Assembly: GCA_016782405.1 (NCBI GenBank)
Contig: JADHYO010000002.1
Coordinates: 1-41,093 of the forward strand
Reading direction: 5' to 3'
Source of the DNA: Candidatus Aenigmatarchaeota archaeon
GTDB lineage: Archaea; Aenigmatarchaeota; Aenigmatarchaeia; QMZP01
Length of the DNA: 41,093 bases
Of this stretch, positions 8,282-11,145 are shown piece after piece. The first letter of the stretch is position 1. Each line of letters opens with the position of its first letter. A model generated the notes under the pieces. The model saw only the letters and a list, made by a program, of their open reading frames with translations, was not told the origin of the DNA and searched no databases. The position numbers and the translations under genes are program-made.

Positions 8282-8335
8282 TTTTTAAAAACTCCCTTGT
8301 TTAATATCTATCATGCCTCGGTAGCTCAGTAGGTA

Positions 8336-8363
8336 CCTCCTGCAAAAGCAGGTGAGCTTTAAA
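8336..8363 (+). other. putative 28-nt D-arm intron in tRNA-Asn
   Basis: Sits between D-loop AGTAGGTA and the D-stem 3' strand GAGC; contains hairpin CCTGC-AAAA-GCAGG. Possible relaxed BHB: exon TAGG with intron TTTA (two G-U), bulges TA^C and AA^G. Confidence 0.65.
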
Positions 8364-8379
8364 GAGCACACGGCTGTTA

Positions 8380-8393
8380 CATTTATGGCAGAC
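8380..8393 (+). other. 14-nt anticodon-loop intron (37/38) in tRNA-Asn
   Basis: CTGTTA^CATTTATGGCAGAC^A; central helix CTGT:GCAG, bulges TA^C and AC^A. Confidence 0.8.
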
Positions 8394-8439
8394 ACCGTGT
8401 TGTCGTAGGTTCGAGCCCTACCCGAGGCGCTTATCCAAC

Positions 8440-9258: not shown

Positions 9259-9393
9259 ACCAATCCCTTATCCATTTCTACGCACCAAACCCTTAAATTG
9301 CTTCCCCTAACCCCTTGCTTTTTAATATATTCAGCCAAATCAATTACATTAAACAGTGGGGCGGTAGCTCAATGGGAGAGCACCAGACTGAAG

Positions 9394-9408
9394 CCTTTTT
9401 AGGTTGAA
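9394..9408 (+). other. 15-nt anticodon-loop intron (37/38) in tRNA-Phe
   Basis: CTGAAG^CCTTTTTAGGTTGAA^A TCTGG; removal gives loop CTGAAGA. Only weak BHB complementarity visible. Confidence 0.75.
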
Positions 9409-9424
9409 ATCTGGGTGTTGTGAG

Positions 9425-9453
9425 AAGGTGAAAGGAAACTCTCACCTCACAAA
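9425..9453 (+). other. 29-nt T-arm intron (between positions 53 and 54) in tRNA-Phe
   Basis: Complete 3-4-3 BHB: inner helix AGGTGA:TCACCT, bulge AG^A, 4-bp helix TGTG:CACA, bulge AA^T. Confidence 0.85.
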
Positions 9454-9460
9454 TTCGATA

Positions 9461-9491
9461 CCTTAACGGAGAAATCCGTTATCGAGAAACT
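9461..9491 (+). other. 31-nt T-loop 3'-side intron in tRNA-Phe (boundaries +/-2 nt)
   Basis: Lies between TTCGATA and CTCAC; contains hairpin ACGGA-GAAA-TCCGT flanked by TCGATA:TATCGA. Exact splice junction not determined; length 31 nt in all 7-nt-loop solutions. Confidence 0.65.
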
Positions 9492-10240
9492 CTCACCCGT
9501 CCCACTTGTTTTTTAATTATTGATTCTGAGTATAGTTGAACCTTACCTTTAGCGTAAATGTCTCTACATCTTGCCACTTTTAGTAAATGTTTTGGGTTAT
9601 TAAAACCTATCAATTTCATCCATTTTTCTAAATTTCTTTTTCCGTTCAGATCTATTTTATACCCAACATGTTTTTTCCCAGTGCCATCATCAACTATATC
9701 AACATATCTACAAAATGAAAACCCCAAACAATTCAACTCAAATGCAACTTGCTGTATAATGGTTTCACTTTTCAATTTCATGGTTATGGTTGGATAATAT
9801 TTGTATTTTTTATGCCTCTTCTTGAGAGCCAAAGAACCATCGGTATCGTATAAACCCCTAACAAACGGTACTATAAATTTTTTATTTTTTAGTATTATTT
9901 CAGGAATTTTTATATCATTCTTTGGACCTATATTCATTCCCACATCTTTCAGAAAATTAAATAAACCCTTTGATTGGCACCTAACAAAGATAACATTCTG
10001 ATCATTTCTCTGAAAAAGGGTAACATTCATATTGAAGAGTACTTTAAACAATGGAATAATCTTAGACTCAAAGTGAGCTCTATCGTTTATAGAATGACCA
10101 ACAATCTCTATCAACCTTCTTCGTTTATTTTTAGGATCAGTGAAGTCATAAACAGAACCATCACCAATTAAAATCCCTAGAAATTCAGCAAATTCAGGCG
10201 TCATCTTCTTTGGTAATTTCAATTTCATCGCCTTGTTCAT
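9479..10240 (-). CDS. free-standing LAGLIDADG homing endonuclease
   Basis: 253 aa; two dodecapeptide-type motifs FAEFLGILIGDGSV and FVRGLYDTDGSL. 3' end overlaps tRNA-Phe by 26 nt, antisense. Confidence 0.88.
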   Translation of the reverse strand: MNKAMKLKLPKKMTPEFAEFLGILIGDGSVYDFTDPKNKRRRLIEIVGHSINDRAHFESKIIPLFKVLFNMNVTLFQRNDQNVIFVRCQSKGLFNFLKDVGMNIGPKNDIKIPEIILKNKKFIVPFVRGLYDTDGSLALKKRHKKYKYYPTITMKLKSETIIQQVAFELNCLGFSFCRYVDIVDDGTGKKHVGYKIDLNGKRNLEKWMKLIGFNNPKHLLKVARCRDIYAKGKVQLYSESIIKKQVGRVRVSR

Positions 10241-10355: not shown

Positions 10356-10562
10356 ATGCCCAAGAAAAAGGATTTCCCCCCAGACAGATATCAAGAGGAA
10401 ATACTGAAGATTCTCAAGGAAGAGCCTTTCATGTCCACATCAGAAATCTGCCACAAACTGAATATGGGATACGAAACAGGGCTTAAATACACAAACCAAC
10501 TATTCAATATAAACAGGATAAAACTAAAGAAAGTAGGTAATAGAAGATTTTGGTATTTGTGA
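10356..10562 (+). CDS. small winged-helix DNA-binding protein
   Basis: 68 aa; YQEEILKILKEEPFMSTSEICHKLNMGYETGLKYTNQLFNINRIKLKKVGNRRFWYL reads as a compact wHTH. Confidence 0.6.
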   Translation: MPKKKDFPPDRYQEEILKILKEEPFMSTSEICHKLNMGYETGLKYTNQLFNINRIKLKKVGNRRFWYL

Positions 10563-10566
10563 TACC

Positions 10567-11145
10567 ATGCCAAAGAAAATCCCCGAAAAAGAAGCGAAGG
10601 CAAAGTATGCCAAGGAGAAACCAGCAGCCGCAAGGCTGCTCACCAACAAGGTTTTTGTCCCCAAGAACTTCGATCCTTTACTGGAAAAGAATTATGGCAA
10701 ACATTTGAGAGGTGGCCTAGAGCTCGGTCTTGTTGAAGCCCTCTATTTGCTAGAAAAAGGAAAAATAAACATTTCCAAGGAAGGAAAAAAAGTCACGTTC
10801 CAAAAGCTGTTAGAACATGCCCTGAAAAAAGACAAAAGAATCCACGAGAAGCTGGCGGTATATAGCGACCTCCGCGACCGCGGACTTGTAGTCAAGACAG
10901 GCTTCAAATTCGGTTGCGACTTCCGCGTTTACCAGCGAGGCGTCGGGGTTAAGCGCGGTCCAAAAGCCCCAGGAGAACATACAAAATGGATTGTCTACGC
11001 TGTCCCTGAAGATTACAAATGTTCCTTCCAGGAACTATCCCGTGCCGTTAGATTGGCACATTCAATCCGGGCTAGAATGTTGTGGGCACTTGTTGATAAT
11101 GAGGCTGATGTCACATTCTTCGAAGTGATGCGTCTCAAACCTTAA
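10567..11145 (+). CDS. endA: tRNA-splicing endonuclease subunit
   Basis: 192 aa; KFGCDFRVYQRG, EHTKWIVYAV, SRAVRLAHSIRARMLWALVDNEADVTFFEVMRLKP; EndA C-terminal domain. Confidence 0.88.
   Translation: MPKKIPEKEAKAKYAKEKPAAARLLTNKVFVPKNFDPLLEKNYGKHLRGGLELGLVEALYLLEKGKINISKEGKKVTFQKLLEHALKKDKRIHEKLAVYSDLRDRGLVVKTGFKFGCDFRVYQRGVGVKRGPKAPGEHTKWIVYAVPEDYKCSFQELSRAVRLAHSIRARMLWALVDNEADVTFFEVMRLKP

Follow-up and report, generated by a model that had tools for sequence, protein, structure and literature searches.

The window, the whole 41,093-nt stretch of DNA analyzed here, belongs to the metagenome-assembled genome (MAG) of a Candidatus Aenigmatarchaeota archaeon (DPANN), which comprises 625 kb in 28 contigs and is 65% complete. 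It carries a block made up of tRNA-Asn, tRNA-Phe, and endA, with a LAGLIDADG_3 gene inserted between tRNA-Phe and endA. The features of this block are as follows, with the basis for each call in parentheses.

8315-8429, plus strand: tRNA-Asn(GTT), interrupted twice, once in the D-loop and once at 37/38; the first gene of the tRNA-Asn/tRNA-Phe/endA block
9321-9330, plus strand: TATA-like sequence TTTAATATAT, 28 to 37 nt upstream of tRNA-Phe, which we take to be an archaeal box A (read directly)
9358-9393, plus strand: tRNA-Phe(GAA) exon 1, tRNA positions 1 to 37 (cloverleaf after splicing)
9394-9408, plus strand: intron 1, 15 nt, at 37/38, relaxed BHB motif (2/4 central pairs; G37 kept, as in relatives)
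9409-9424, plus strand: tRNA-Phe exon 2, positions 38 to 53 (cloverleaf)
9425-9453, plus strand: intron 2, 29 nt, at 53/54, BHB motif, the bulges being AG^A and AA^U (all 4 of 4 central pairs formed; inner helix of 6 bp)
9454-9459, plus strand: 6-nt micro-exon TTCGAT, T-loop positions 54 to 59 (cloverleaf; also in relatives G017 and G019)
9460-9490, plus strand: intron 3, 31 nt, at 59/60, bulges AU^A and AC^U (3/4 central pairs; position conserved)
9491-9504, plus strand: tRNA-Phe exon 4, positions 60 to 73, with A73 (cloverleaf)
9509-9514, plus strand: terminator-like T-run 3' of tRNA-Phe (read directly)
9479-10240, minus strand: LAGLIDADG_3 homing-endonuclease-like gene, 253 aa (ORF; PF14528, E 6e-7; PDB 2dch, E 8e-4; homologues)
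10356-10562, plus strand: small 68-aa ORF directly 5' of endA (read from the sequence)
10567-11145, plus strand: endA, tRNA splicing endonuclease, 192 aa (PF01974, E 5e-27; TIGR00324; PDB 1a79, E 2e-30)

Folding showed that the tRNA-Phe(GAA) gene at 9358-9504 gives a perfect 72-nt cloverleaf only with three introns removed, at 37/38 (9394-9408), 53/54 (9425-9453), and 59/60 (9460-9490). With the introns in lower case, the gene reads GGGGCGGTAGCTCAATGGGAGAGCACCAGACTGAAG cctttttaggttgaa ATCTGGGTGTTGTGAG aaggtgaaaggaaactctcacctcacaaa TTCGAT accttaacggagaaatccgttatcgagaaac TCTCACCCGTCCCA. The spliced tRNA has a 7-bp acceptor stem (GGGGCGG/CCGTCCC, including one G-U pair), a 4-bp D stem, and 5-bp anticodon and T stems, and it carries anticodon GAA, G37, and A73. 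The original prediction of three introns and a spliced 72-nt tRNA was thus borne out, both by the full cloverleaf and by relatives with the same layout; likewise, the proposed T-loop micro-exon between introns 2 and 3 proved to be the 6-nt TTCGAT, the same in G017 and G019. Neither ARAGORN nor Rfam at its gathering score called a tRNA in the window; the Rfam tRNA model scored tRNA-Phe at 24 bits against a 29-bit cut-off, with the 3' end misplaced, because the introns interrupt the gene. The four exons are collinear inside 147 nt, which sets the gene apart from split or permuted tRNAs; rather, it is a three-intron tRNA with three separate introns in one gene, an arrangement conserved in G017.

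In the archaeal endonuclease structure, nucleotides 13 to 15 make up the bulge, and cleavage takes place at the phosphate of nucleotide 15 (PMC12397907). In agreement with this, we placed each cut after the second nucleotide of a 3-nt bulge. Against a BHB motif with 3-nt bulges and a 4-bp central helix, intron 2 formed all four pairs, while introns 3 and 1 were relaxed, with three and two pairs, respectively. The central helix of intron 2 (UGUG/CACA, followed by the 6-bp inner helix) lies at positions set by the tRNA alone, and none of 100,000 shuffles equaled the motif. Identical geometry was found in seven 53/54 introns, namely, those of tRNA-Phe in the window, G017, G019, G014, GW2011_AR5 (L150), and JACPDL010000002 (L152) and that of tRNA-Ile in the same genome as the window. 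Moreover, the central helix covaries among the seven, with pair 50 being U-A, G-C, C-G, or U-G. Shared geometry together with covariation indicates a selected structure, not chance or misassembly. For intron 1, the position and the 3' end, GAA^A, are the same in G017. The motif of intron 3 is weak in the window taken alone (P = 0.07), and the call therefore leans on comparison: the 59/60 intron of G017 has 3/4 central pairs plus 7 further pairs (P = 0.0001), and introns at this position are also present in G019, AR5, and L152 and in several other tRNAs of the genome to which the window belongs. The predicted coordinates of introns 1 and 2 stood, whereas the boundary proposed for intron 3, about 9461-9491 with a T-loop of TTCGATA, was one base off and was dropped. 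The bulge cut rule, the 59/60 introns of other tRNAs in the window's genome, and the G017 and G019 genes all place this intron at 9460-9490, so that T60 falls in the last exon and the T-loop is TTCGATT.

The double T-arm layout (53/54 plus 59/60) is shared by G017 and G019, which represent two other genera of the same family, and by the more distant GW2011_AR5 and JACPDL010000002, both of which have the micro-exon TTCAAA. G017 (JACQOD010000113.1) has the identical three-intron set, and the introns of G019 are at 9/10, 53/54, and 59/60. A three-intron gene in G017 and the T-arm pair in G019 exclude a sequencing or assembly artefact. Elsewhere, intron content differs. In G014, the 53/54 intron is the sole T-arm intron; tRNA-Phe of G004 (L261, G004:C65) has five introns (9/10, 30/31, 37/38, 43/44, and 59/60), each with 3 to 4 of 4 central pairs, and their removal leaves a perfect 72-nt cloverleaf; UBA10154 (L165) and AR5 (L150) have four introns each, some with weak motifs; and the remaining relatives have one, two, or zero. 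G022, from the genus of G017, has no T-arm introns in tRNA-Phe. Introns at tRNA-Phe are thus gained and lost rapidly. As separate observations, most of the tRNA-Phe genes with a 9/10 intron (L250, L261, L262, L266, and L273) have a second acceptor-like sequence, GGG[AG]CG[AG], about 10 nt upstream, and one relative assembled as one contig encodes a bacterial-looking tRNA-Phe(GAA) with A37 (L067, G020:C1:912273) in addition to the archaeal tRNA-Phe.

Genes with several introns are frequent among the tRNAs of this lineage, and introns are widespread in the host genome itself. By hand count, there are at least 30 in about 25 tRNA genes, plus several genes recognized by their T-loop introns, and tRNA-Thr(GGT) and tRNA-Pro(GGG) have three each. 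The 37/38 intron of tRNA-Val(CAC) (G000:C9:4538-4629) and the 59/60 intron of tRNA-Ala(CGC) (G000:C16:22026-22094) share a stretch of 69 nt at 100% identity, which we read, from the sequences, as a recent intron transposition. A related sequence, CACCCTTTT...GGCTGCACC, turns up in many other tRNA introns of this genome. The three tRNA-Phe introns are not members of this family, and no copies of them were found elsewhere in the genome.

The order tRNA-Asn, tRNA-Phe, endA is kept in many of the relatives examined. Besides the endA product, which is of the alpha type, the genome encodes a second splicing endonuclease of the epsilon2 type (G000:C20:15838-16632); many relatives have both types, and some have only one. 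As is characteristic of EndA introns, taking them out of the sequence leaves a complete tRNA, and an endonuclease is encoded (window 10567-11145 and C20:15838-16632). Separately, the aligned Aenigmatarchaeota alpha-type EndA proteins (the window and L125 to L165) have an alanine where a lysine of METJA, presumably K156, aligns (HSIRARM versus HSVRKKL), with the Tyr and His kept.

Altogether, these data make it highly probable, as far as sequence can tell, that 9358-9504 is a functional tRNA-Phe(GAA) gene with three EndA-type BHB introns that would be cut by EndA and/or the epsilon2-type enzyme and joined by RtcB, intron 2 leaving before intron 3. A dead tRNA-Phe, broken by T-arm or homing-endonuclease insertion, with another, intact tRNA-Phe taking over its role, is improbable. 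Such a reading could appeal to the foreign-looking ORF overlapping the 3' end of the gene and to the 35% of the genome that is missing; however, all stems are intact after splicing, and A73, G37, box A, and the T-run are in place. In addition, the intron motifs covary, other genera have the same layout, and synteny marks the gene as the orthologous tRNA-Phe. The search for another tRNA-Phe(GAA), which the original prediction had called for, found none in the 65% of the genome covered, regex scan matches being non-tRNA only.

Still less probable is one larger T-arm insertion, with another choice of exons, in place of two introns. The weak intron 3 motif of this genome, considered alone, would allow it. 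Nonetheless, TTCGA, which is required for the T-loop, occurs within the gene only at 9454-9458, and the CTCAC adjoining the acceptor strand is the copy at 9492-9496. Furthermore, each T-arm intron also occurs without the other: many other tRNAs have a 59/60 intron by itself, and the 53/54 intron is alone in tRNA-Ile and, within the T-arm, in tRNA-Phe of G014. Group I introns do occur in Aenigmarchaeota rRNA genes (PMC6125680; L198), but self-splicing of this kind for any of the three introns is refuted by their lengths: a catalytic core takes up about 250 nt, and they measure only 15, 29, and 31 nt. No group I Rfam match was obtained in the window.

For the functional three-intron gene, transcription and splicing can be envisaged from the gene sequence as follows. 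The product of endA, whose gene lies 1 kb downstream, and/or the epsilon2-type enzyme would presumably cut each bulge after its second nucleotide, and RtcB, as the likely ligase, would join all exons, the 6-nt micro-exon of the T-loop among them. The intron 2 motif would occupy T48 to G51, part of the T-stem, so that the T-stem could form only once intron 2 has left. Intron 3 would in turn rely on the T-stem for its outer helix, which makes it probable that intron 2 leaves first and intron 3 second, while removal of intron 1 would be independent of the other two. The predicted fold of the unspliced precursor had a multibranched T-arm. Counting against the reading given here are the fold computed without intron 2, from which the T-stem was absent, and the imperfect motifs of introns 1 and 3.

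The LAGLIDADG_3 gene meets tRNA-Phe tail to tail: its last codons run antisense across the 3' end of the tRNA, with the stop codon falling within intron 3. The translated product has two LAGLIDADG-like motifs, FLGILIGDG and FVRGLYDTDG. No LAGLIDADG gene is present at the tRNA-Phe/endA site of G017. The closest homologue, in G019 (58% identity), ends exactly at the 3' end of a tRNA-Phe with both T-arm introns. Among 69 homologous loci picked by similarity, with intein-length ORFs left out (L181 to L249), a tRNA found by Rfam or scripted search lies within 120 nt of the gene or overlaps it in 39, and 2 more were recognized by eye (about 41/69); 6 loci are in 23S rRNA, and some homologues take their stop codon from the abutting tRNA. 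For 29 loci, flanks of up to 1.5 kb were covered; only five tRNAs were present there at larger distances, a density from which about 0.4 tRNAs would be expected so close. In G135 (L203, G135:C2, endonuclease gene at 9424-10023, minus strand), the endonuclease ORF sits inside a 638-nt BHB intron located at 30/31 of tRNA-Phe(GAA) and extends through both tRNA exons; the motif of this intron forms 4/4 central pairs together with 12 bp of inner helix. We know of no earlier archaeal tRNA BHB intron bearing a homing endonuclease gene, and the open-access literature yielded no report of one. Integration of the LAGLIDADG gene in the manner of a tyrosine-recombinase element was rejected, as a search on the far side of the gene for the tRNA 3'-end remnant that it predicts found none.

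We tentatively propose that a family of LAGLIDADG homing endonucleases targeting tRNA genes may spread and maintain tRNA introns in Aenigmatarchaeota, although we consider this less likely than not. An enzyme encoded beside the tRNA, as in the window, or within a BHB intron, as in G135, would cut intron-free alleles; repair would then copy the endonuclease gene together with the hairpin introns, masking the target. In this scenario, what is co-converted and gives protection would be, for tRNA-Phe, its T-arm introns. For 16S rRNA introns, it is established that a neighboring endonuclease brings about co-conversion of a small hairpin intron (PMC4496867), which offers, by analogy, a hypothetical model for the travel of T-arm introns. 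Like the archaeal 16S/23S rRNA BHB introns (PMC4496867), those described here are small hairpin introns near a LAGLIDADG gene; unlike them, they reside in a tRNA, and the LAGLIDADG gene of the window is outside the introns, antisense, and convergent.

In Thermoproteales (Pyrobaculum and Thermofilum), tRNAs carry up to three BHB introns (PMC3218864, PMC4390854, PMC8450103); for archaeal tRNA genes in general, up to three introns each are reported, with Thermoproteales averaging 0.84 introns per gene (PMC8450103). The tRNA-Phe gene resembles these in having EndA-type introns at canonical and noncanonical positions, up to three per gene, and closely spaced introns leaving in sequence have been described there (PMC8450103). 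It differs in its phylum, Aenigmatarchaeota, in the T-arm intron pair around a 6-nt T-loop exon found in several genera, in the linkage of endA to the tRNA, and in an enzyme set of alpha plus epsilon2 types where Thermoproteales have (alpha beta)2, and its relatives reach four and five introns. A tri-intron tRNA-Ile of the eukaryotic alga Cyanidioschyzon merolae (PMC9602550) likewise has three introns with one in the T-arm, the others being in the D-arm and anticodon arm, in contrast to two in the T-arm here. We regard the tRNA-Phe gene as a new-lineage variant of the EndA-spliced multi-intron tRNAs known from Thermoproteales. The open-access literature searched contained no report of four-intron archaeal tRNAs or of DPANN multi-intron tRNAs. 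To our knowledge, no multi-intron BHB tRNA-Phe was known before from Aenigmatarchaeota.

Intron-riddled tRNA genes have been regarded as chiefly a Thermoproteales trait. The present data place a distant, reduced DPANN lineage in the same intron-rich state, in which a 6-nt exon of the T-loop recurs between two introns, and imply that standard tRNA finders overlook essential tRNAs in such genomes. Furthermore, the tRNA-Phe genes of relatives with up to five introns, the 69-nt intron identity, and the homing endonucleases attached to tRNAs make the mechanism of intron gain directly testable.
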